A stretch of 64,000 nt of DNA. Origin: Gluconobacter cerinus. Its GTDB lineage: Bacteria; Pseudomonadota; Alphaproteobacteria; Acetobacterales; Acetobacteraceae. Shown here piece after piece: positions 34,088-45,996 of the stretch. A program made the position numbers and the translations under genes. The DNA is taken from assembly GCF_002723935.1 (NCBI RefSeq), contig NZ_BEWM01000002.1, positions 558,001-622,000 of the forward strand, in the 5' to 3' direction. Within the stretch, counting starts at the first letter, position 1. Each line of letters begins with the position of its first letter. The notes beneath the pieces were generated by a model. That model did not search any database. It worked only from the letters and a program-made list of their open reading frames with translations, and was not told where the DNA came from.

Positions 34088-34996
34088 TTACTTATTGAGA
34101 TCCATATTATGGATGAAGAAATCCACAACTTCTGAAACCAGTTTCTTCGAATCTTGCCGCCAGTAAACCCCTACGTTGAGGGTAATATCGGAAAGGTCCT
34201 CGATGTTTTTATTTTCTTCAAATTTGTATTTTACTGATTTTAAATAGGATATCGTAGACATTCCTATGGTCTCAGGATTGTCTATCAAGCTGGATGCACC
34301 AATGATTGAATTTAGTTCAATCAGGTTTTTCGGTGTTTTTAAGCCATTATATTCGAGAATAGAGTCGAATCTATCGCGCATAGCTGTTCCACGAATGGGT
34401 AGAACCCATACTTTTGATTGAAAGCTATCCCAGTTTCTAACTATCTCTTTCATTGAATAGGCGCGATCTTTATCGATAATAACACATTTATCTTGGATGA
34501 GATATTTATAGTTAATCCTATCATCTATTATGTCATTATAAGCACTGGCAAAGATTATATCTGTTCTTCCCTTCAGAAGAGAGGAAAATAGATGCTCTCT
34601 TGACCCATAATTTACTGTAAAATTTACATTTTTAGATGAAACTATAGACAAGATACATTTCATCATCTCTGAAATAATAGAGTTTGATTGAAATGATATA
34701 TTCACATAGTTTTTTTCGTTATAGATATTATCTATATCAATAATCATCCTATCTATTTCTTTTTCAATTAAAATACTAGATTCTACAACACGTTTCGCAA
34801 TCTCATTGGGTATAAGTCCATGTATAGTTCTTGAGAAAAGTGTTTTTCCAATAATTTTTTCAAATTCTATGCACGTTTTGGATATTGCGGCGGGGGTTAA
34901 AGACATAACTTCGGATGTTTTTTTTAAGTTTTGTATTTTATAAATATGTTTTATTACGTTTAAATGACGAATTTTAATGTTGGATTTTCTATTCAT
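34088..34996 (-). CDS. LysR-family regulator, AT-rich orphan
   Basis: 302 residues. N-terminal helix-turn-helix (HLNVIKHIYKIQNLKKTSEVMSLTPAAISK) and a LysR effector domain. It is extremely Lys/Ile/Asn-rich and its codons are AT-rich, unlike the adjacent alpha-E gene. It has no obvious target gene: upstream lies about 480 bases of AT-rich DNA, then a decayed integrase. It may be cargo left from an earlier integrated element. Confidence 0.78.
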   Translation of the reverse strand: MNRKSNIKIRHLNVIKHIYKIQNLKKTSEVMSLTPAAISKTCIEFEKIIGKTLFSRTIHGLIPNEIAKRVVESSILIEKEIDRMIIDIDNIYNEKNYVNISFQSNSIISEMMKCILSIVSSKNVNFTVNYGSREHLFSSLLKGRTDIIFASAYNDIIDDRINYKYLIQDKCVIIDKDRAYSMKEIVRNWDSFQSKVWVLPIRGTAMRDRFDSILEYNGLKTPKNLIELNSIIGASSLIDNPETIGMSTISYLKSVKYKFEENKNIEDLSDITLNVGVYWRQDSKKLVSEVVDFFIHNMDLNK

Positions 34997-35478
34997 TTAA
35001 ATTCTTCCCACGAATTTTAAGAATTATTGAATATTTACCACGTGCTATCGAGTGGATTGCTTTGTTTTTCTAGGCTCATTCTTTGTTGCAATAAGAAATA
35101 TTCATCTCTTTTTCTGGGGCGCTTTCTTATTTCGTGGACGAAGATCAATAGCATTTCTTAAAAGTGTGGATATCAACTTTTTTTTGACATACAAAAGATT
35201 ATCTATTTTTTCGGATTTTTAACTAATTTTACCGATTGAGAAAAATGTAGAATTAAAATGGATAAATATAATATTTCGAAAATATCATATGTATTTTAAT
35301 AATTGTATTTGATTTAAGGTATACTTATTTATGTGTTTTAATTTTCATTAAAAAATATGTTCGATTTTAAAATTTACAATTAATTAAATTAAAAATAAAA
35401 CTATTCCGTAAACTTAGTTTCTCTTGGTTTTGACTTTTCAGAAGAATGATGCATTCGAAAAACCTTTGATGAGTACCC
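34997..35478. other. AT-rich intergenic region without a gene
   Basis: About 480 bases. The stretch 35030-35430 consists almost only of A and T runs, unlike anything else in the window. I see no coding frame, RNA gene or clear repeat. It could hold the promoter of the AT-rich LysR gene and resembles DNA targeted by xenogeneic silencing proteins. Confidence 0.6.
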
Positions 35479-36012
35479 TTACTTTTTTAACTCAGGGTCA
35501 CTCGCAGTGGGGGAAGGACCGGACAAGCCATGTCCAGTGCGGCTCGCAGATTTTCCCAGCTTGTGAATGATGTCGGTCAGAGCACTGATTTCGAGAGCAA
35601 TCTTCTCAAGCACGCTGGAAACCCGCTGATGGTCTTCCATTCTTGCCAGAAGTGCTCGGCGTTCATGGTTTTGTAGCAGGACTTCAGAGCCTGAATCTCA
35701 CTGTCGTAGGTCTGGACAATGGACTGGAACAGGTCCTGCTGGACAGGATGCAGGTCAGATGTGGCTAGGAGCCTCCTGAAAGGTCTCAACCGCTTTGTTG
35801 AGCGAGGATGTTTCTTCCGATGAAGACATGGCCAGACTGATGCACTCGAAAAGCTGAGAGGTCAGTCCATACATGGCACAGGCACGGGTTCTGGCAAGAT
35901 TTCTGTTGAGGGTCTCCAGGGAGTGCCAGATTTCCCGTTTTCCCAGAACAGGCCGAAAACGAACGGGAATCCCGCGTCTGAAATGGAAACCGGATTGCAG
36001 ACGAATCAGCAC
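35479..36012 (-). pseudogene. Decayed integrase N-terminal remnant
   Basis: The first 85 codons (from the ATG at 36012) resemble the start of the intact integrase at 44075-45817: both share HFRR, a P.RP.LGK core and EIW.SL, then the helix with an RACAMYGLTSQLFECI-like pattern. The frame then breaks. Two further open segments continue in other frames, ending with DPELKK and a TAA at 35479. No catalytic domain remains. It lies 91 bases left of the att-like repeat, almost the same distance as the intact integrase from the tRNA. Confidence 0.7.
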
Positions 36013-36102
36013 AACAGGGTTCGTTTTGTAGAAGCCCCTTGTAGAAGAACGGGGGCTCCGGGTTGCTGAAAACCCTAAAAGATTTTTGTTTTCAATAACT
36101 TA

Positions 36103-36128
36103 TATGTGGTACGAGCTGCGGGACTCGA
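36103..36128. repeat. attL-like copy of the tRNA-Leu 3' end
   Basis: 26 bases (tatgtggt-A-cgagctgcgggactcga) identical at 25 positions to 45907-45932, which is the 3' end of tRNA-Leu plus four flanking bases. The rest of the tRNA is absent here. This is the expected scar of site-specific integration and marks the left end of the element. Confidence 0.8.
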
Positions 36129-36608
36129 CCTGCTCCTCAACATTTTTGGGGTGTTGGGAGTGTCTCAATTTCAGCAGAAAACTGCGGATATGATGCTCTT
36201 CTCAGTGAACATTATGGAGAACAGGTTTGGAGAAAAACTGAGGCTAGTCAAGGGTTCTGTGGTGGTGGCCATATTGGCGTGAAGGAAGATGCGGCTAATT
36301 TTGAAATCGTTCCGGGGTACTGCGGGTCGCTCCGGGTTTGTGTATGTGATAATCGGTCATGTCGGGTGGTGGATAGATTTTTTCAATCAATCACAAATTA
36401 TAGATAAAACGATTGATAGACACTTTGGATATCGATCATGCGTCAAGATGGCAGAATAACACCGTCGCATTGTAATTTTTTTAGAGCCAACAGCCATTCT
36501 CTCCTGATTCCGTCATGCAGAAGAAAAACGTGTAAATTTTGTCTTGCAAGCCTGGATTTCTATACACAAACCAGGCAAAAAGCATGAGAAGTCATGGAAA
36601 GCGTTTAA
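36129..36608. other. Non-coding left end of the integrated element
   Basis: About 480 bases between the att copy and the methyltransferase gene. One plus-strand frame stays open for about 100 codons but has no start codon or ribosome site. I found no control gene for the restriction system and no RNA gene here. It probably contains the methyltransferase promoter. Confidence 0.5.
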
Positions 36609-37991
36609 ATGCCCACACTCTCTCCTCCGAAGCTCTCGATGGTCGATCTGTTCGCCGGTTGCGGCGGACTATCGCTTGGCATGGAGAATGCTGGTTTCAC
36701 TCCAGTATTTGTCAATGAGCTAAACAAGGATGCACTAGCAACTTATCTTGCCAACCGACACCACGATGTCGGGGGCAAACCATTCGCAGACCAAAAACAT
36801 CTACACTGCAATGATGCTAATGACTTGCAAGGTGACAGACTGGAGCGGATGGTCTCAGATTTATCAGCCCTTGGGATTGAATTTCCTACGTTGATCGAAA
36901 CACAATCTAATTCAAAGCCTCGAGTAGAACGAGGAACTTTAGATTTATTAGCTGGAGGACCGCCTTGCCAAGGGTATTCGGGGATTGGTCATCGTCGCTC
37001 GTATTCGGTCGATAAAAAGGACCTGCCATCGAATCAGCTATACGGCCGAATGGCTCAAATTATTCGTCGTTTACGTCCCCGTATCTTCCTGTTTGAAAAT
37101 GTCCGTGGCTTGCTTAATTCTAAGTGGACACGGGAAGGAAATGAATTAATTTGGCCAGACGTTCTAAGAGAATTCCAAGATATTCCAGGTTATCAGGTTC
37201 GCTTCACTCTGGTACGCGCTTCCGATTATGGTGTTCCACAGAATCGCCCCCGAGTCCTGCTAGTAGGGATAAGGGATGACATCGTTGAGAAAAGTTTTTC
37301 CGTAGATCTCGGGGGGGATCAATTAGATGCTGTGCAGTGTGGTTTTTTGCCAAAACCAAACCCGTCAGAGGCGCCTGATTTAGAAGAGCTCCTGAGCGAC
37401 CTCGTCGATCTTGACGCGCAACATCGCCTTGAAACACAGGACTTCAAAAGTAGTAAGTTTCAAACGACTGAGTATCCAAGACCTCCGCAAACTGCAATTC
37501 AACAGAAGTTGCGTCAGCCTCCGCCAGTTCATGAAGAGCGGTCTAACCAACTCACCGACCACGAATACTCAAAACATGCGCTGCGGATCGTGCAAAAGTT
37601 TAAGCACATGATCGAGCACGGTGAGATCCCTGCGCACGCACGTACAAAAAAGTTCGCGCAAAAAGTTCTTCCAGCAACATGGGGAAACGGCCGCCCAACG
37701 ATAACAGCAACATCTATGCCGGACGATTATGTACATTACTCTCAATCGCGCGTACTAACAGTTCGAGAATGGGCTAGATTACAGCTTTTCCCGGATTGGT
37801 ACAGATTTGAGGGAAAGCGAACTACCGGTGGCATTAGACGCGCTGGCAACCCCAGAGAAGGCCTCTTTGACCGTGAAGTCCCCAAGTATACCCAAATTGG
37901 GAATGCTGTACCTGTCGGGCTCGCGGAGCGTGTTGGAAATAACTTTAAATATATTATTGAAGGCGCATTGAATAATGTTAGAAAAAAGTGA
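36609..37991 (+). CDS. DNA cytosine C5-methyltransferase of a type II R-M system
   Basis: 460 residues. Motifs in order: I DLFAGCGG (13-20), IV GGPPCQGYSG with the catalytic Cys120, VI FENVRG (162-167), VIII PQNRPRVLLVGIR, and X in YTQIGNAVPVGLAE. It methylates cytosine C5 to protect host DNA from the endonuclease encoded next. The recognition sequence is not readable from sequence. The gene overlaps the endonuclease gene by 17 bases. It has lower GC than the core genes and lies on the mobile element. Confidence 0.93.
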   Translation: MPTLSPPKLSMVDLFAGCGGLSLGMENAGFTPVFVNELNKDALATYLANRHHDVGGKPFADQKHLHCNDANDLQGDRLERMVSDLSALGIEFPTLIETQSNSKPRVERGTLDLLAGGPPCQGYSGIGHRRSYSVDKKDLPSNQLYGRMAQIIRRLRPRIFLFENVRGLLNSKWTREGNELIWPDVLREFQDIPGYQVRFTLVRASDYGVPQNRPRVLLVGIRDDIVEKSFSVDLGGDQLDAVQCGFLPKPNPSEAPDLEELLSDLVDLDAQHRLETQDFKSSKFQTTEYPRPPQTAIQQKLRQPPPVHEERSNQLTDHEYSKHALRIVQKFKHMIEHGEIPAHARTKKFAQKVLPATWGNGRPTITATSMPDDYVHYSQSRVLTVREWARLQLFPDWYRFEGKRTTGGIRRAGNPREGLFDREVPKYTQIGNAVPVGLAERVGNNFKYIIEGALNNVRKK

Positions 37992-39171
37992 TTTTTCTAT
38001 AGTAAAAGCGCTAGAGATTTTAGGGAAAATTGGCGTTGAATCTGCCTTGTTAGTCCCAACCAAGACAGGATTAGAAAAATCAATATTTGATGCGACTGAT
38101 AATTTACGCCAATATCTGTCGAATCTCCAATACCATGATTTTAGGCAGCAGGGGCAAGGTCAAGGCTGCAAGATACAGCGCGAAGCTTTTCTAGTAAGAG
38201 CGAATTCGCTCGAGAAGACCACAGTTTCAATGTATCGCCCAGAAACTAAAAGAGGTGACCCAAGGATTTGGCTTGGGCATTCTGTGCGATCATACGCGGC
38301 GGCTTATAATCTTCTAGCTATCGTTGTTTTAGACAGCGTCATGTACATTCTGAATATGAGTGATCGTGCTGTCCGGTCCTCTTTTACTAATGACGATTCG
38401 CCTTTCAGAAAAATTGTCGACCAATATACTTCGCCCTCCTCTGTGGCCAGAGAGCTTCTCGGGCTGCTGCGGGGTATTTCGCAACAAGGATTTGTAAAGA
38501 CGCTGAGGTCTGGGGATACTGGAGTTGGCTATACGCTAGAGACCCTACTCGGCATTTCTGCGAACTCGCGTAAGGCACCGGATTTCAAAGGAATAGAAAT
38601 TAAGGCGAAACGTAGCAGAGCGGGCTCAGGAGTTAATCGCTCTACTCTTTTTTCTAAAGCTCCCAATTGGAAACTTAGCCCTATTGGCAATGCTAAAAAC
38701 CTCCTAGTCATGCGAGGTTATGATGACAAAAATGGCCGTCGTTCTCTGTATCATACACTCGATGCAGCAGAGCCAAACTCATTGGGATTAACCCTTGAAA
38801 TTGATCCAGAGTGCGATTGGCTAAAACAAGTTTATGTCGACCCTTCAAGTGGGGCACGTGTGCACGACGTTACTTGGGAGATTCCGATTCTAAAAAATGA
38901 CTTAGCTGCTAAGCATCAAGAGACTTTTTGGGTAAAAGCAGCTTGCCGGGGCCGAGGAAACATGGAAGCGTTTCATTACGTCGAAGTTCAGCATACCCAA
39001 AAAGCTATGACTGCAAATCTGCCAGCTTTAATCGAAGCTGGGGTTCTTACGGTTGATTATGCCCTTCATTATAATGGCACTAGAGCTCGAGATCACGGTT
39101 ATTTATTTAAAATTCGTCCTGATAGCCTTGGAGCATTATTCCCCCCGCCGCGTATTCACGCTTTGTTGTAA
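37975..39171 (+). CDS. MvaI/BcnI-family type II restriction endonuclease
   Basis: 398 residues. The C-terminal half carries the family active site: Glu189 (TLETLLGI), Asp203, Glu208 and Lys210 (APDFKGIEIKAK), then a conserved WVKAACRGRG and HYVEVQHTQKAM region. The N-terminal 180 residues are unrecognised and may bind DNA or regulate. Known MvaI and BcnI cut CC(W/S)GG as monomers with N4-cytosine methylases, whereas here the partner is a C5-methyltransferase. Start overlaps the methyltransferase 3' end, so translation is coupled. Confidence 0.82.
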   Translation: MLEKSDFSIVKALEILGKIGVESALLVPTKTGLEKSIFDATDNLRQYLSNLQYHDFRQQGQGQGCKIQREAFLVRANSLEKTTVSMYRPETKRGDPRIWLGHSVRSYAAAYNLLAIVVLDSVMYILNMSDRAVRSSFTNDDSPFRKIVDQYTSPSSVARELLGLLRGISQQGFVKTLRSGDTGVGYTLETLLGISANSRKAPDFKGIEIKAKRSRAGSGVNRSTLFSKAPNWKLSPIGNAKNLLVMRGYDDKNGRRSLYHTLDAAEPNSLGLTLEIDPECDWLKQVYVDPSSGARVHDVTWEIPILKNDLAAKHQETFWVKAACRGRGNMEAFHYVEVQHTQKAMTANLPALIEAGVLTVDYALHYNGTRARDHGYLFKIRPDSLGALFPPPRIHALL

Positions 39172-39279
39172 ATGACAATATAAGAGATTTAGAAATATTC
39201 TTTTTCATTTGCTTTGGAAGCATAAAATATTAATACGCACTAAACTTGTCTAAAAAGGGATTTTTACTCCCCCCTAAAA

Positions 39280-39795
39280 TTAGGAGGCAAGCTCATCAAT
39301 CAACGACTCTTCATTTCCTCCGTATATAATGCTTCCTAACTCGTCTATAAGCTCTAAAGATATTGCCAGTCTATATCGCATGCTTCTTAACGTAACATTT
39401 GTTGTATTTGCTTCTTTCCCATGCGCAATATCATTCCGACTGGCTATCAAAGAATTTATTTCACTTTTATAATTATCTTTACTTTCAAGCCACCTATTGA
39501 ATTTCTCAGACCAGCTCAAATCAAAAGATCTAAGAATAAAATCAATATTACTTATTTTCATATTGCGTGATTCTGGCCAGGTGTCTGAGATATATTTATC
39601 TAGGCGCGATATTTCATGTGATGAAACGAATTCGAGAAGGATTTCTTTGAATGATTGTTCGATATATCCTGATATCAAGACACTTACGTATTTTGCCCAG
39701 TCGGCTTGTTCTTCTGGATCAGAAGGACTTTTTCGGGCCAACGCTTCAAGGCGTGCACGGTAGCTATGGCGCAATGCATTTGAAGATATACTCAT
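39280..39795 (-). CDS. HEPN-domain nuclease candidate (MAE_28990/MAE_18760-like)
   Basis: 171 residues from the ATG that overlaps the DUF262 stop (ATGA). All helical. The HEPN catalytic motif R-x4-6-H appears as SRNDIAHG (Arg120, His125), preceded by EINSLIA. N-terminal ALRHSYRARLEALAR and SGYIEQSFKEIL match the MAE_28990-type family as I remember it. HEPN proteins of this type are usually metal-independent RNases used in toxin or abortive defence. Tight coupling suggests the DUF262 protein senses or controls it. Convergent with the endonuclease gene. Confidence 0.72.
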   Translation of the reverse strand: MSISSNALRHSYRARLEALARKSPSDPEEQADWAKYVSVLISGYIEQSFKEILLEFVSSHEISRLDKYISDTWPESRNMKISNIDFILRSFDLSWSEKFNRWLESKDNYKSEINSLIASRNDIAHGKEANTTNVTLRSMRYRLAISLELIDELGSIIYGGNEESLIDELAS

Positions 39796-41003
39796 TTTTT
39801 TAAGAATTCTTCCAAAGAAACCCGAAGACGCACTGAAACACGATTGGTATCGTTTGTGAATTTGTCTACAGACCACAAATAACCTTTTTGATTATCTGGA
39901 ATACTTGAAATTTCTTCGCCTTTATCATCTAGCCCTCGCGTGTCCTTGTGAAGATTTTGCAATTTTTCTTTAATAGATTGCTTCCCGAGTATTTCTTTTG
40001 CTTGATCTGTGGCTTCTTGAATATCCTTATAAATTTTGTCACCTAAAATTGACATTAAGGATACAACAAGAGCATCAAAACGGGTTATTATGAAAGTTCC
40101 ACCAGTCTTTAATGCAGAATCTCCTAAGCTTTCTCTAATCATACTCACTGATGATTTAAAAATAATTTCAATATTTCTACATTCTTCTTGTGGAATATTC
40201 CTATTATCGCTTATAAATGCGTCTAAAAATTTTGGCATACTTGCTTTATAGTTCGATCCGTTTTTATAAAGAGCAATCGCTCTTAGTATGGCCTCTTGGT
40301 CTTTCATGCGACTATGAACGTTACCAAATAGAGCTCGCCAATCTTCGTAATTGTTAATGTTTTGTATCGTTGTTAAAAGATTACCGTGGAAAATGCTTGC
40401 CCTTACTTCCTGAGAAGTTAGAGCTTTTCCACTCGTGTTTAACCTCTTAAATATTTGAATAATGGCTGCGTTGTATTCTTTTCCAAGTTCTTTATCGTCG
40501 TGTTTTGGGTTTGGTTTAATTACTACGGCATGAATTACTGCATCGGATAGCGTACGCTCATCGGATTGGTCTATAATTTTTGCTCTTTTATTGTAAGTAT
40601 CTCTGCGCTTACTGTGGTATTTATTTTTTAAATCTTGGGGTATATCCACTCCAGAGAGAGAAAACTCTCCATTTAAATAGGATTGAAGCGTTTTAAGTCT
40701 TTGCTGGCCATCGATAATATTTAACTTGCTTGTCTCAGAATCTTTCGCGAGAAATATTGTTGGAACGGGCAGCCCAAGAATAAGAGATTCGATGAAACGT
40801 GATTTTTCAGCATTGGACCAAACAAAGCCCCGTTGAAATCCAGGTACGTAGATATCCTCGCGGTTAAGGCGTTTCACGAGACCTTCTACATCTACATCCC
40901 AGCCATAGCTGCTTACCTCGAAACGATAACCGTTCTCTGTTTCTGCCTCACTATTATCGTCTTTAATTTCTGTGTCTTCAATGTAATCTCTGTCATTGTG
41001 CAT
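39792..41003 (-). CDS. DUF262-domain protein (GmrSD-like sensor/NTPase half)
   Basis: 403 residues. The ParB-like DUF262 core is clear: YVPGFQRGFVWS (52-63), IESLILGLPVPTIFL and the hallmark DGQQR (98-102). GmrSD-type enzymes continue into a DUF1524 HNH nuclease, but no HxxP-type nuclease is visible here; the C-terminus ends in a short charged tail. The nuclease role may be taken by the HEPN protein encoded directly behind. AT-rich promoter region upstream (41004-41106). Likely anti-phage or anti-plasmid module on the element. Confidence 0.82.
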   Translation of the reverse strand: MHNDRDYIEDTEIKDDNSEAETENGYRFEVSSYGWDVDVEGLVKRLNREDIYVPGFQRGFVWSNAEKSRFIESLILGLPVPTIFLAKDSETSKLNIIDGQQRLKTLQSYLNGEFSLSGVDIPQDLKNKYHSKRRDTYNKRAKIIDQSDERTLSDAVIHAVVIKPNPKHDDKELGKEYNAAIIQIFKRLNTSGKALTSQEVRASIFHGNLLTTIQNINNYEDWRALFGNVHSRMKDQEAILRAIALYKNGSNYKASMPKFLDAFISDNRNIPQEECRNIEIIFKSSVSMIRESLGDSALKTGGTFIITRFDALVVSLMSILGDKIYKDIQEATDQAKEILGKQSIKEKLQNLHKDTRGLDDKGEEISSIPDNQKGYLWSVDKFTNDTNRVSVRLRVSLEEFLKK

Positions 41004-41114
41004 TTTTGATAATCCAAAATCTCATAAAAGACTCTTGAAAAGAAATATCATATTGTTGCAGATTAAGTAAATAATTAATTTGATATTATTTTCGTTAAAT
41101 GCGTCCTATGTCGC

Positions 41115-41354
41115 GGTCAGGTTGAGAAGATGAACCGAACAATCAAGGAGGCAACCGTCAAGCGCTTCCATTACGACAGCCATGGGCAGTTAAGGACGCA
41201 CCTCAGCGATTTCATGGCAGCCTATAACTTCGGGCGAAGACTCAAGACCGTGAACGGCCTTACCCCTTACGAAGGCGTCTGCAAAATATGGACTTCAGAG
41301 CCAGAAAGATTCATCATCAATCTAACCCACCAAAACCCAGAGCCAAACAATTAG
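41115..41354 (+). pseudogene. IS481-family transposase C-terminal fragment
   Basis: About 79 codons beginning at GQVEKMNRTIKEATVKRFHY and continuing through AAYNFGRRLKTVNGLTPYE and KIWTSEPERF, the usual C-terminus of IS481 transposases including the last part of the DDE domain. The N-terminal two thirds and both inverted repeats are missing. It separates the defence genes from the mobilisation genes and suggests past rearrangement inside the element. Confidence 0.85.
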
Positions 41355-41365
41355 AATACCTCGGG

Positions 41366-43114
41366 CTACGAGGAAGGCGCAGGAGAGAGCCTTTGAGAAA
41401 TTTTCGGCGGATGGAGCACAATTCCCCCTCCATTTCGAGCCTGTTCTAGCTCTTTGAGCGCTGCTTGCAAGTCGCCTCTCCTTTTATGTGCTACGATGAA
41501 GGCTTTGATCTCCTTCGATACCGAAGCAGGCGGTTGCCACACATCGCGCAGTCGCTCCATCCGCTGCTCTGCGGCCTCTCGCGCAACATGATGATCCGCA
41601 TACCAGTCCAAGATGATTTTACGCCGCTTTTGTTCTGCCTCCCGTGCGTATTCTTTCAGAAGACTCCGACATTTGTCCTTATCTACCAAGACGGCCAGCA
41701 TTTTATGACGTGTATGAAGAACAGCACGTCTTGCCTGTTCTCGCTCGTCGGGAACAGGTAGCTCCAGTGCAGCTGGTGGACGCGTCGTTAAGCCGAGACG
41801 GTAGAGAATATATTCGAGGAGATAGCGCAGGATCTCCCCTAGATTAGCTGCGGCCTGCCGTAGTTGTTCTTCATCTTGCGAGAGACGTTTTTTCTGGAAG
41901 ACCTGCCATCGCAGTGCGCGTGCTTCCTTCAGGCGTTCTCGGGCTGCTACAAATTCTTGACCTGCTGTGTTCAGCTTGCGGCGTAACGTGGCGATATCTT
42001 GCATCAAAAGATCGGCCTGTTCGTCGACCGATAGAAACCTCTTGTTTTCCAGCAGATGCTTTTTCTTCAAGATCTCCTGAGAAGCTCTGAAGTCTTTCTG
42101 CCAGTCCTCGAGATAACGACGGAAGCCGTCGGGCAAACGAGCCGGCTCAGCCCAGGACAAGATTTTAGGCGTATGACCTGTACGCTTCAGCGGGACGATC
42201 TGTGCATCCTCTGGGGGAGAAGAGGGTTCAGGCGTTTTTGCCGCTTTGGATGGAGACGAGAGCTTTAAGGGTTTTCTTCTGTTCTTTGCCGTTAAGCCTT
42301 CTTTCTCCAAAAACTCCCGGAAGTCCTTCATCCTGACTTTTGTCAGCCGTGTGAATGACCCGATCAGCATACCATCTTGGGTTTCAATGATATGGGCATC
42401 CCGACGTCTGTCTGTACGATCCCCCGATCTCATGTGCCAGTTTCTGGTGGCCAAGAGCTGGCGAAAGGCTGTCAGGTTATTGTCTGAGGCTTGCCAGAAG
42501 CTCAGGATTTCCTGTCTGGCCGTCGGGAGGTCAAAATCTTGCCGCTCGGTGATTCTCCGAGCTTGCGATGTATAGGCTGCAACCGGACGAGCAAACCTGT
42601 CTTCAGGCGCAAGGGCTGCAATTCTGTCAGCAGCATCGTGGTTGCCATCTGCCCTCAGCGCCTTTGCGATAGCGTGATCATGCCGTCCGGGAACGAGGGA
42701 GTGGCCTAATCGCAACTCTTCAAGCCGGGCAATTTTCTCAAGCCGTTGCCAAGAAAATCGGCTGCTCAGCACATGATCCTCCTGCCATTCCGGCAATAAG
42801 AGGTGGCCATGTGTGCTGCCATCTTTCTGATGGATGACGAGTGCCATGCGACTGGGATCAGCTGATAGCTCTGCACAGATGCGTTCCGCAAAAAACGCCA
42901 GCTGTTCATCCGTCATAGGCTCTGCGGGATTGAAGGCAATATGTCGCAGGCCATAGCGGATACCTTCACGCCGTGCCTCTTTCATCCAATCCTTTAAGAG
43001 ATAGTCACTTCCCGACAAAACGCGGATGGCTTCATTCTTGGGACCGGACAGAACATGTCGGGAGACGGACTTATAGCCGCTCGCCGTCCGAATGCGTGTC
43101 TCTTGCACAATCAT
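41366..43114 (-). CDS. Relaxase/mobilization nuclease
   Basis: 582 residues. The metal-binding motif of relaxases is visible as His95-x6-His102-x-His104 (IHQKDGSTHGHLLLPE). A tyrosine near the N-terminus (Tyr14 in ASGYKSVSRH) is a candidate for the nicking residue. The C-terminal 300 residues are charged and helical with coiled-coil character. It should nick at oriT and lead transfer of the element. No type IV secretion genes are present, so the element would be mobilizable only with a helper. It starts 21 bases after the mobC-like gene. Confidence 0.82.
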   Translation of the reverse strand: MIVQETRIRTASGYKSVSRHVLSGPKNEAIRVLSGSDYLLKDWMKEARREGIRYGLRHIAFNPAEPMTDEQLAFFAERICAELSADPSRMALVIHQKDGSTHGHLLLPEWQEDHVLSSRFSWQRLEKIARLEELRLGHSLVPGRHDHAIAKALRADGNHDAADRIAALAPEDRFARPVAAYTSQARRITERQDFDLPTARQEILSFWQASDNNLTAFRQLLATRNWHMRSGDRTDRRRDAHIIETQDGMLIGSFTRLTKVRMKDFREFLEKEGLTAKNRRKPLKLSSPSKAAKTPEPSSPPEDAQIVPLKRTGHTPKILSWAEPARLPDGFRRYLEDWQKDFRASQEILKKKHLLENKRFLSVDEQADLLMQDIATLRRKLNTAGQEFVAARERLKEARALRWQVFQKKRLSQDEEQLRQAAANLGEILRYLLEYILYRLGLTTRPPAALELPVPDEREQARRAVLHTRHKMLAVLVDKDKCRSLLKEYAREAEQKRRKIILDWYADHHVAREAAEQRMERLRDVWQPPASVSKEIKAFIVAHKRRGDLQAALKELEQARNGGGIVLHPPKISQRLSPAPSS

Positions 43115-43135
43115 GGCGAGGCACCTGCATCGCTT

Positions 43136-43555
43136 TTAGTGCAGGACAGGGTCTGTCGTCTGTTCCGTGGTTTGGGAGAGAAAGCGTCGACGCCGTAGCA
43201 GAGGTAAAGAGCGTAGCAAGCTGTCGGTTCGGTCTTTGGTTATCTCAATGGCATCGAGAACATTACCGCAGCGAACAGCCTCTCCACAATGAGCAGCATG
43301 GGCTAGCTGATTAAGGTTGTTGCCGATGCGACTGAGCTCAAGGCGCAGGAGGCGCAGTTCAGGACCAAGCTCTGATTTCTGCTGTCCTGTCATCGCCTGC
43401 TCTTGCAGAAGAGACCGGACATAATGAGCTGTGGTCGCATGGCCATGTCGTCGGGCTGTTCTGGCCCATACGGCGAGTTCAGCCGGGTGGGCTCTGATGG
43501 AGAGGCGAGAACTACGAGGAGGCGACGCTTTTGGTCGGGAAGGCGTGCAAGGCAT
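43136..43555 (-). CDS. MobC-like relaxosome accessory protein
   Basis: 139 residues from the ATG with AAGGAT upstream. A ribbon-helix-helix-like N-terminal half (RLSIRAHPAELAVWARTARRHGHATTAHYVRSLL) and the MobC signature ELSRIGNNLNQLAHAAH. It would bind near oriT and help the relaxase. First gene of the mob operon, with a candidate oriT directly upstream. Confidence 0.8.
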   Translation of the reverse strand: MPCTPSRPKASPPRSSRLSIRAHPAELAVWARTARRHGHATTAHYVRSLLQEQAMTGQQKSELGPELRLLRLELSRIGNNLNQLAHAAHCGEAVRCGNVLDAIEITKDRTDSLLRSLPLLRRRRFLSQTTEQTTDPVLH

Positions 43556-43597
43556 GACTGTATCCTTTTTGGGGTCAACGGGGGAGGAATTCCCCCT

Positions 43598-43680
43598 TGC
43601 CAGCTGTTCTATGCACCCGGAACGGGTAGCCATAGAGCACTGCTGGCTCAGGACAAGAAGGCCTCACAAAACAGGATAGC
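43598..43680. other. Candidate origin of transfer (oriT)
   Basis: A nested inverted repeat lies upstream of mobC: GCCAGC (43599-43604) with GCTGGC (43642-43647), CTATG with CATAG, and an inner ACCCG-gaa-CGGGT. On the minus strand 43672-43680 reads GCTATCCTG, matching the TATCCTG nick motif known from RP4/Ti-type origins. Position and structure fit an oriT; nicking is not shown. Confidence 0.45.
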
Positions 43681-43751: not shown

Positions 43752-44075
43752 TTATTGTTCCTTTCGTATATCATGGAACCGCGTTTCTGCTACTTCCCAC
43801 GGAATTTGGCTCTGTGCCAGAGAGCGAATTTTCTGGAGACTATATTGTTGTCTCTTCTGATAATAATGTCCGGAGCCCTTTGCGAGCCATCCACCGATTC
43901 CCTGTGCCGCGAGAGCATGAGCGGCGCGGGAAATCTCTTCGTCGGTGGGGGTGCTGTGACGTCCGAGCAGAACGTGTCGGCCGTCTTCTACGAGAATGAG
44001 CCAGTCCTGAAATTCTGATTTGGAAGGAGAGGGCTTCATGGCTGGAAATTCGGCTCCGTTGTAGGGGAACGGCAT
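43752..44075 (-). CDS. Hypothetical protein coupled to the integrase
   Basis: 107 residues. The ATG overlaps the integrase stop (TGATG); an ATG 36 bases later is the alternative. No recognised domain. The core (DWLILVEDGRHVLLGRHSTPTDEEISRAAHALAAQGIGGWLAKGSGHYY) is compact, slightly basic and may form a small mixed fold. The coupling suggests a role in integration or excision control, such as an excisionase-like function, but this is inference only. Confidence 0.55.
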   Translation of the reverse strand: MPFPYNGAEFPAMKPSPSKSEFQDWLILVEDGRHVLLGRHSTPTDEEISRAAHALAAQGIGGWLAKGSGHYYQKRQQYSLQKIRSLAQSQIPWEVAETRFHDIRKEQ

Positions 44076-45817
44076 CAGATGTGCCCTTTAGGAGACGGCA
44101 GGCTGAAAGCCGGATACTGAATGGCTTCGACCGTCCTTTGCAGGTTGGTGAGGTCAATACCGCTCAGATATGTTGTGGTGCCCTGACTCTTATGGCTGGA
44201 TTCATGACCCAGCAGGGCATCAATCCAGAGTTCGCGGATATCGCTGTCCTGATTTCTCAGAAGCGTCGAGACGGTATGACGGAAGCCATGGAACGTGACG
44301 GCAGGGGGAAGGCCCATCATCATCTTGTAGCGAGAGAACGCCCGGCTGAAATCGGCTCCGCGAGACCCATCCTGTGAAGCCTTCAGGTCAGGGAACAGGT
44401 ATTTCTCCTCCGTTTTTCGGAATGTCAGAAGACCCCAGTCCAGCAAAGCGGAATGAACGGGAACAAGACGCTCTCCCGCTTCGGTCTTGGGGGACCAGTT
44501 GTCTTCAGGATGTGCACAGATGCGGAAGCAGGGAACACCCTCCACGTCCTGAATGTCTTCATTGCGCAGGTTGCAGATTTCTCCAAGACGCATGCCGCTA
44601 TAGGCGGCGACCATCGTAATGCTCATGAAGGTCTCTGCCGGAATGCTGCAAGCGGGCCATGGCGTCCGGGCCAGTCTGTTCATTTCTTCCTGCGTCCATG
44701 CCCGCCGGGAAGTGCGCTTGCTCAGGTTGAAGTCCCAGCCACGCCAGGGGTTCTCTTTCGCCATGTTCCTGCGCACAAGGTCACCCCACAGGGATGAAAC
44801 GCACATGAAGTGGTTCTTGACGGTTTTTGCGCTGAGTGTCGGAAGGTCCTGTGAGGCGGCTCTGTCGATTTCTTCCTGAAGGGACAGGGTTCTGTTTTTG
44901 CCATGGGATGCTGGGAGCGAAAACAGGACATCCCGGAAATTGCCTGCGACCTCGCCATCAATCTGGCAGAGGGGGAGATCGCCAAAAGCGTCCATGAAAA
45001 GGGTGACAGTTCGCGATGTGGCCCGTTGTGTCTCTGGGCTCTTGGCCGGTTTGTTGTTTAGAAACCGTTTCAGGGCGGCAGACAGCAGGACGGGTGGTTT
45101 CGTCTTTGATGCTGGTGTGGCGGGGACGATTCCGGGTGTTTCGGAGGGCGTTATCTCTGGCTGAGGAGCCGGAATGACGGGAGCGGATCGGACGGTCGTG
45201 CTTTCGATGGCCTTAGTCAAGGTGCTGACAAGTGTGTCATGCAGCCGTCTGATTTCGGTTTCGAGAACCTTTTTCTCGGTCTGGGTCGTTCGCGTTTCCT
45301 GTACCGCTTGATACGCCAGCGCTGTCAGCTCTGTCTGTTGCTTGAGGGCAATCGCGATGACTTCCTCGAGGTTTTCCTGATAATGTTTGACGTCGTGGGC
45401 ATGGTTCAGGACGCTCTTGTAATATTGGGCCTTTCCAGCCATTTCGGCCGCTTCGACAGCGGTTTTCTGGATAAGCTTCTGCTGGGCGAGCATGTCGCGA
45501 TAATCATCCAGCAGCGCATAGGCAAGCTCTTCATTCGTTCGCAGCCCGCGCTCGCGTATGTAGGCGATCAGACGTGGGTTGGTAATGGACGCATCCGGGA
45601 ATGGGGAAACCTTGGGAGGCGTCTGTGAAGGGCTCACGCTGCGAAGGCTCCGGAAAAGATCGGTGGTCTGGGCGTGCAGGTCTGCCGCACGGCGTCTGGC
45701 TTCTATCTTGCCTGCGGTTCCCAATGAAATCCAGATCTCGCTTTTGCCAAGCAGGGGCCGAAGCGGCGAGGGAACGATGCGGCGGAAGTGATAGCGCGAA
45801 CCGACCAGTTTGAGCAT
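44075..45817 (-). CDS. Site-specific tyrosine integrase of the element
   Basis: 580 residues. The N-terminal 60 residues are the SAM-like/DUF6538-type start (YHFRRIVP.PLRPLLGKSEIW pattern), then a long helical region, then a catalytic domain from about residue 390. Catalytic residues are visible in SGMRLGEI (first Arg), HGFRHTVS (His-x-x-Arg), LLGHESSH and the tyrosine in TTTYLSG. It lies 93 bases from tRNA-Leu, into whose 3' end it presumably integrates. It is the intact homologue of the remnant at 35479-36012. Confidence 0.9.
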   Translation of the reverse strand: MLKLVGSRYHFRRIVPSPLRPLLGKSEIWISLGTAGKIEARRRAADLHAQTTDLFRSLRSVSPSQTPPKVSPFPDASITNPRLIAYIRERGLRTNEELAYALLDDYRDMLAQQKLIQKTAVEAAEMAGKAQYYKSVLNHAHDVKHYQENLEEVIAIALKQQTELTALAYQAVQETRTTQTEKKVLETEIRRLHDTLVSTLTKAIESTTVRSAPVIPAPQPEITPSETPGIVPATPASKTKPPVLLSAALKRFLNNKPAKSPETQRATSRTVTLFMDAFGDLPLCQIDGEVAGNFRDVLFSLPASHGKNRTLSLQEEIDRAASQDLPTLSAKTVKNHFMCVSSLWGDLVRRNMAKENPWRGWDFNLSKRTSRRAWTQEEMNRLARTPWPACSIPAETFMSITMVAAYSGMRLGEICNLRNEDIQDVEGVPCFRICAHPEDNWSPKTEAGERLVPVHSALLDWGLLTFRKTEEKYLFPDLKASQDGSRGADFSRAFSRYKMMMGLPPAVTFHGFRHTVSTLLRNQDSDIRELWIDALLGHESSHKSQGTTTYLSGIDLTNLQRTVEAIQYPAFSLPSPKGHI

Positions 45818-45906: not shown

Positions 45907-45932
45907 TATGTGGTGCGAGCTGCGGGACTCGA
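45907..45932. repeat. attR copy overlapping tRNA-Leu 3' end
   Basis: Direct repeat partner of 36103-36128 (25 of 26 bases equal). It includes the T-arm 3' strand, acceptor strand, encoded CCA and four flanking bases. The tRNA stays intact because the element restores its 3' end. Confidence 0.8.
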
Positions 45933-45996
45933 ACCCGCACGCCCTTACGGACTCGAGATTTTAAGTCTCGTGCGTCTACCATTCCGCCAAGCTCGC
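45911..45996 (-). tRNA. tRNA-Leu (anticodon TAA)
   Basis: 86 bases including an encoded CCA. The acceptor stem GCGAGCT pairs with AGCTCGC. The anticodon stem is CGAGA/TCTCG with loop CTTAAAA and anticodon TAA at 45961-45963 (reverse strand), which reads UUA. A long variable arm (GTCCGTAAGGGC region) and a GGTTCGAGTCC T-arm fit a class II leucine tRNA. It is the integration target of the element. Confidence 0.96.

Follow-up and report, generated by a model that had tools for sequence, protein, structure and literature searches.

The window analysed here is a stretch of 64,000 nucleotides of Gluconobacter cerinus DNA (contig NZ_BEWM01000002.1, positions 558,001 to 622,000 of the forward strand), in which a mobile element carries a DUF262 gene and a HEPN gene together with a restriction-modification (R-M) system. 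The frames of the two genes share a four-base ATGA overlap. An earlier note, made from the sequence alone, had placed both genes, the DGQQR motif of the DUF262 protein, the HEPN residues Arg120 and His125 and the overlap, and all of these coordinates and the strand were found to be correct. The features of the pair are as follows.

39792..41003, minus strand: DUF262 (GmrSD_N) protein, 403 amino acids (PF03235, 96.4 bits, cut-off 33.2, residues 42-205)
40698..40712, minus strand: DGQQR motif, DUF262 residues 98-102 (from the translation)
39280..39795, minus strand: HEPN protein of the RiboL-PSP-HEPN family, 171 amino acids from its ATG, a putative ribonuclease (RNase) effector (PF18735, 61.4 bits, cut-off 28.4)
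39421..39438, minus strand: HEPN active-site motif R120-N-D-I-A-H125 (from the translation)

The DUF262 protein has a predicted layout of a ParB/Srx-fold domain and a C-terminal helical domain without DUF1524. Neither DUF1524/HNH nor any second Pfam domain was found in it at E values up to 1, leaving GmrSD_N as the only match and agreeing with the earlier claim that the DUF1524/HNH half is absent. For a relative that shares 50% identity with it, the model could be aligned to BrxU 1-416. The DGQQR motif is identical in 36 of 36 aligned DUF262 relatives and was present in 119 of the 120 relatives among the matches listed (120 of 1350), the sole exception, P0040, being a 293-amino-acid piece.

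A search of the Protein Data Bank (PDB) with the HEPN protein sequence gave no match, while the top PDB matches to its model (predicted template modelling score, pTM, 0.82) were mostly HEPN proteins; together with the PF18735 score, this bears out the HEPN fold that had been proposed for the small protein. The HEPN_MAE_28990 family (PF18737) named in the earlier note was rejected because its score of 24.3 bits is below the cut-off of 26.8, and the RiboL-PSP-HEPN name is preferred. Arg120 and His125 are unchanged in 41 of 41 aligned HEPN rows, as is, at the positions checked, the H-G-K-E of the window motif, which reads RNDIAHGKE. Both a HEPN family match and the R-x4-6-H string by which a HEPN RNase is recognised are present in the window protein, although the RNase role itself is predicted from sequence.

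Conservation of the DUF262-HEPN pairing

Genome searches covered the family (299 genomes, E up to 1e-15), the class, the phylum and a second family (385, 398 and 248 genomes, 1e-30) and a third family (395 genomes, 1e-40), with partly overlapping samples, and plasmid and phage collections were searched too. The resulting census comprises 37 distinct loci (all those from the five genome searches, the window, the Gluconobacter cadivus locus, 7 plasmid records and 3 of 20 phage records), with L037 and two further GmrSD_N genes of the window's own genome left out; the latter (G000:C13, L061) lie on a 19.9-kb contig in frames of 630 and 834 amino acids. Loci were scored with profiles built from homologues, and those with a DUF262 score above 200 bits, a line set after the scores were known, were called strong. 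Of these there are 22, including the window and G. cadivus, which are near-copies.

A HEPN gene with R-x4-H lies directly downstream of the DUF262 gene in 22 of 22 strong loci, so the co-occurrence expected from the earlier note is found in other genomes. The two genes overlap in 13 of these loci and are overlapping or within 18 nucleotides in 21, the exception being L038 (211 nucleotides); DGQQR is likewise present in 21 of the 22, with DGYQR in L029. At a threshold of 150 bits, 24 of 25 loci were paired, and L041 was without HEPN. A second HEPN profile, seeded with 13 strong-locus HEPN genes and 12 database homologues, the window's own included, recovered the non-seed HEPN genes of L030, L053, L056, L060 and L076, and that of L071 was weak by this profile (E 6.8e-5) but clear by Pfam (53 bits). 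Among the weaker loci (below 200 bits), a HEPN gene was found downstream in 8 of 15, five by the second profile (E 6e-6 to 2e-3) and three by Pfam. With these eight included, all 30 paired HEPN genes encode R-x4-H, the HEPN-like string having been chosen by eye in proteins with several such strings.

Contig sizes gave strong but indirect evidence of the same pairing. The comparison took in 118 DUF262 rows (all 120 listed except P0002 and P0091, the latter without a contig) and 43 HEPN rows (all 44 except P0001). Of the 43 HEPN matches, 19 were on contigs equal in size to those of DUF262 matches, giving 20 pairs against 0.29 expected, a number reached in 0 of 2000 jitters. The same comparison was weak for the element's restriction endonuclease (REase) with DUF262 (3 pairs where 0.56 were expected; 39 of 2000 jitters gave as many) and with HEPN (1 pair where 0.19 were expected; 340 of 2000 jitters gave as many). 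Overall, the DUF262-HEPN pair is a conserved operon, and the pairing is far beyond chance.

Viral contigs yielded no useful relative, with a single 33% partial match and otherwise none. Some DUF262 proteins are longer by about 120 amino acids, and a C-terminal HEPN fusion was rejected for them because the extra part sits N-terminally; the N-terminal stretch of the 507-amino-acid open reading frame (ORF) of L053 was also rejected as a domain, resembling by eye a non-coding read-through. In a Hymenobacter plasmid (L031:4446-6011), the paired DUF262 protein bears an N-terminal MTaX1 domain (PF20296), and at L055:4319-5200 an SMODS nucleotidyltransferase gene lies about 0.9 kb behind the pair.

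The mobile element and a putative B3-like domain common to its REase and DUF262 relatives

The element is about 9.8 kb long, is located at tRNA-Leu, and has the following further features.

36103..36128, no strand: left copy of the 26-bp att repeat, the element end (25 of 26 positions identical when the tRNA-Leu region was compared with the window by blastn)
36609..37991, plus strand: C5-cytosine DNA methyltransferase (C5 methylase; PF00145, 192 bits)
37975..39171, plus strand: MvaI/BcnI-type REase, 398 amino acids, catalytic part at residues ~165-389 (PF15515, 182 bits, cut-off 25)
37975..38424, plus strand: REase N-terminal domain, residues 1-150 (BLASTP to P0073 and P0118)
41366..43114, minus strand: relaxase (PF03432, 24.5 bits, just below the cut-off of 24.6)
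43136..43633, minus strand: MobC/NikA-like mobilisation protein (PF21983 and PF05713, each above cut-off)
44075..45817, minus strand: tyrosine integrase with DUF6538 (PF00589 and PF20172)
45907..45932, no strand: right-hand att repeat, lying within the 3' end of tRNA-Leu (45911-45996, minus strand)

Besides the recognised genes, from which the cargo of the element is read as the R-M system and the pair, a 107-amino-acid ORF lies between the repeats. The REase, which matches R.MvaI (2oa9) with an E value of 1.8e-11, is the convergent neighbour of the pair and is preceded by the C5 methylase. The integrated element and the convergent type II restriction gene described earlier were therefore both recovered, but not as a single gene, since the C5 methylase completes a whole R-M system. 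The same cassette is present in G. cadivus (93.5% over 7.5 kb of DNA, window 36089-43607), in which the integrase-side DNA is unlike that of the window. Among 26 Gluconobacter genomes, the REase was found in two, the window's own and one with coordinates matching G. cadivus, with the pair alongside in both. Just outside the element, a low-GC stretch (window 34088-36012) contains by eye a LysR-like gene, together with a short ORF that is similar to the beginning of a DUF6538 integrase; an older insertion may have left this remnant.

In single BLASTP comparisons, the N-terminal domain of the REase was homologous to the N-terminal extension of long DUF262 proteins (P0073, E 7e-23; P0118, E 4e-18). 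The extension has a B3-like DNA-binding fold in the model of P0073, and from this model only the REase domain is assigned the same fold; the fold matches of B3 type include EcoRII-N with its cognate DNA, a site-specific reader. The DUF262 protein of the window is a B3-less form, nearest in layout to BrxU. In a tree of 51 DUF262 cores, in which several phage and plasmid rows are on very long branches with unsure positions, the B3 forms require at least two changes: one B3 clade (P0073, P0078, P0121) is sister (99/98) to the group of the window, G. cadivus and Phaeobacter, whose DUF262 proteins are without B3, and the remaining B3 clade includes P0117, which is also without B3. In the window, G. 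cadivus and Phaeobacter the reader domain is in the REase and not in DUF262, so that, as judged from homology, the domain appears to move between proteins.

A further locus of interest, from Paraglaciecola, has the order C5 methylase (divergent), a 311-amino-acid protein, B3-DUF262 and HEPN. The 311-amino-acid protein (L075:10493-11428) had no match in a PDB sequence search, Pfam or PADLOC, and for that reason its designation as a REase, from its position, is a guess. Four proteins of 412-416 amino acids (P0174, P0175, P0177, P0191) combine a REase-like N-terminal domain with a different C-terminal part, assigned to no family and hydrophobic at its end, perhaps a third effector with the same reader; P0191 and the REase P0169 are on contigs of equal size (5486).

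A proposed DNA-state sensor and its relation to known systems

The sequences themselves show the two protein families and their motifs, the operon and its conservation, the R-M system on the same element and the reader-domain homology. On this basis we consider it probable, on balance, that the two genes form an anti-phage module of the PD-T4-2 kind, layered on an R-M system, in which a sensor of DNA state gates an RNase; the reader fold in the REase, the DUF262-HEPN contact, the NTPase and RNase activities, the cue and the outcome are parts of this scheme that we infer. The DUF262 protein would correspond to BrxU/GmrSD minus the nuclease half, consisting of a nucleotide-binding domain of ParB/sulfiredoxin fold that holds DGQQR and of a helical domain, and the nuclease role would pass to the separate HEPN protein from the overlapping frame, a position for HEPN that the earlier note had suggested and that is supported here. 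In an uninfected cell, HEPN would be held inactive by DUF262. Upon a cue on foreign DNA, DUF262 would bind or hydrolyse nucleotide and change shape, then release or activate a HEPN dimer, which would cut RNA and stop the phage from growing, probably to the detriment of the cell. For the cue, the most likely candidate is the DNA state at or close to the sites of the R-M system on the element, because a B3-like reader with homology to the REase N-terminal domain occurs in related DUF262 proteins; the domain common to both, which the earlier note did not notice, is thus a likely clue to sensing. As the DUF262 protein of the window is without this reader, it would depend on its own surface or on the REase.

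A bolder form of this proposal, which we think unlikely as a whole, is an R-M system with an RNA-cutting arm, in which a B3-type reader would serve both the DNA-cutting REase and the HEPN-gating DUF262 sensors while the methylase protects the shared sites. If true, unmethylated sites on incoming DNA would provoke restriction first and RNase shutdown upon its failure, and one scheme would have two layouts, one with a DUF262-reader fusion and one, as in the window, with the reader only in the REase. A reader that occurs in a restriction enzyme and also in the sensor partner of a putative RNase offers a concrete trigger candidate, DNA at R-M sites. It would join restriction-modification and shutdown by an RNase in a single decision on self and non-self, for which the methylase would act as the safety catch of both.

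The alternative that survives best is a possible, if tentative, one: DUF262 may detect phage DNA modified to evade the R-M system and then activate HEPN, the two systems being complementary like BREX and BrxU. DUF262 accompanies modified-cytosine targets in GmrSD and BrxU and phosphorothioate in SspE, and the BrxU-like, B3-less layout in the window fits this alternative. Against this, the element has a C5 methylase, whose own mark must therefore be tolerated, and the presence of EcoRII-N among the fold matches points to a site-specific reader.

It is rather unlikely that two independent defence systems merely travel together on one element, the pair being unlinked to R-M, yet several counts favour this explanation and weigh against the sensor tied to R-M. 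A C5 methylase was found within ~6 kb of 6 of 22 strong loci (the window, G. cadivus, Phaeobacter, Rhodococcus, an Akkermansia phage and Paraglaciecola), a raw count without a background rate for genes of a kind that cluster anyway, and of 3 of 15 weak loci (L058, L069 and L051, the last without HEPN). In the remaining 16 strong loci none was found within that distance, in flanks that vary in length and contigs that in some cases end early. The strong locus L039 has an Eco57I-type methylase nearby, and an N6_N4_Mtase match adjoins the weak locus L048; such non-C5 methylases were picked by motif in a few loci and are not a full count. Full-length B3-type REases were found in 7 plasmid records, of which 6 were opened; the pair was present in one (Phaeobacter) and absent from at least five, and the B3-type R-M plasmids of Alisedimentitalea, Vibrio, A. 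baumannii and Acinetobacter gave no DUF262 or HEPN match by these profiles. A universal link of the pair to R-M is not supported by these loci. On the other side, two distinct clades of DUF262 proteins show the reader homology with the REase, one being the sister of the clade of the window, and a C5 methylase accompanies the Gluconobacter (two near-copies), Phaeobacter and Paraglaciecola loci, the first two of which share the REase type.

A toxin-antitoxin or addiction module, in which DUF262 as antitoxin holds a HEPN toxin and maintains the mobile element, would suit the overlapping genes, the small element and a HEPN fold like that of MNT-partner toxins; we regard it as distinctly improbable. 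The Tyr of the R-x4-H-x-Y motif of such toxins is AMPylated by MNT antitoxins, whereas the window motif is RNDIAHGKE, with H-G-K-E after the Arg, and the partner is DUF262 with no MNT. Moreover, PD-T4-2 protects against T4, although toxin-antitoxin and defence roles are not mutually exclusive. That HEPN is a structural or DNA-cutting partner is very improbable given R-x4-H in every paired HEPN gene, even though other DUF262 systems cut DNA and RNase activity is putative here.

With respect to known systems, the pair differs from the type IV enzymes BrxU and GmrSD in that its DUF262 protein is without the DUF1524/HNH part and has a separate HEPN protein instead. UbaLAI is a MvaI/BcnI-type REase with an N-terminal effector domain, and the REase of the window, likened to it by description, too has a MvaI-like catalytic part and an extra N-terminal domain. 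Dazbog (DzbA-DzbB) also combines a DUF262-like protein with a second protein bearing an R-x4-H string, but neither window protein matches DzbA or DzbB (PADLOC, E up to 1). On a Moritella marina plasmid (NZ_CP044398; L068:625-3106), Dazbog genes (DzbA 355 bits, DzbB 170 bits) follow immediately after the C5 methylase of an MvaI/BcnI R-M system of B3 type, and this is a second pair of DUF262-like and R-x4-H proteins linked to such a system.

Literature searches did not find a B3 domain with DUF262 or GmrSD among the matches listed, nor HEPN with restriction-modification and MvaI; subscription papers were mostly outside their scope, and these negatives are therefore no proof of novelty. DUF262 and HEPN did appear together in an anti-phage context in two papers. 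The available part of the main text of the GmrSD phylogeny paper does not mention HEPN (PMC4619093). The earlier note had proposed a new candidate kind of system, and this did not stand. In its available part, the 2013 HEPN survey (Anantharaman 2013, PMC3710099) lists RiboL-PSP-HEPN as active-site-bearing and in an "operon with ParB"; for MAE_28990 it gives a ParB nuclease and a DNA methylase. The window pair has what defines the former, PF18735 above cut-off and a ParB-fold/DUF262 operon partner, and agrees with it in HEPN family, partner fold and retained R-x4-H; the table entry, as available, is without a link to R-M or to a reader domain. PD-T4-2 is a validated E. coli system from a functional screen, in which T4 plaquing increased dramatically after deletion from ECOR65, according to the available text (Vassallo 2022, PMC9519451), and an excerpted 2023 review lists both DUF262 and PF18735 for it and notes the absence of DUF1524 (PMC10952713). 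The parts available of these three sources (PMC3710099, PMC10952713 and PMC9519451) do not state its trigger.

The window pair has the components of PD-T4-2, DUF262 and a PF18735 HEPN without DUF1524. It differs in that, by PADLOC, its DUF262 protein fits NsnA (185 bits, residues 29-394), a label whose meaning was not found in the literature, better than PD-T4-2_A (160 bits, E 1.7e-47, residues 53-347; a model without a curated cut-off), that its HEPN protein matches PD-T4-2_B weakly (19.1 bits, E 2.6e-4), and that its close clade (the window, G. cadivus and Phaeobacter loci) has R-M on the same element. Because of these scores, the pair is best placed, as far as sequence comparison goes, as a divergent member of the PD-T4-2 kind and not as a new kind; as to the earlier note as a whole, its observations are confirmed and its interpretation is partly supported.
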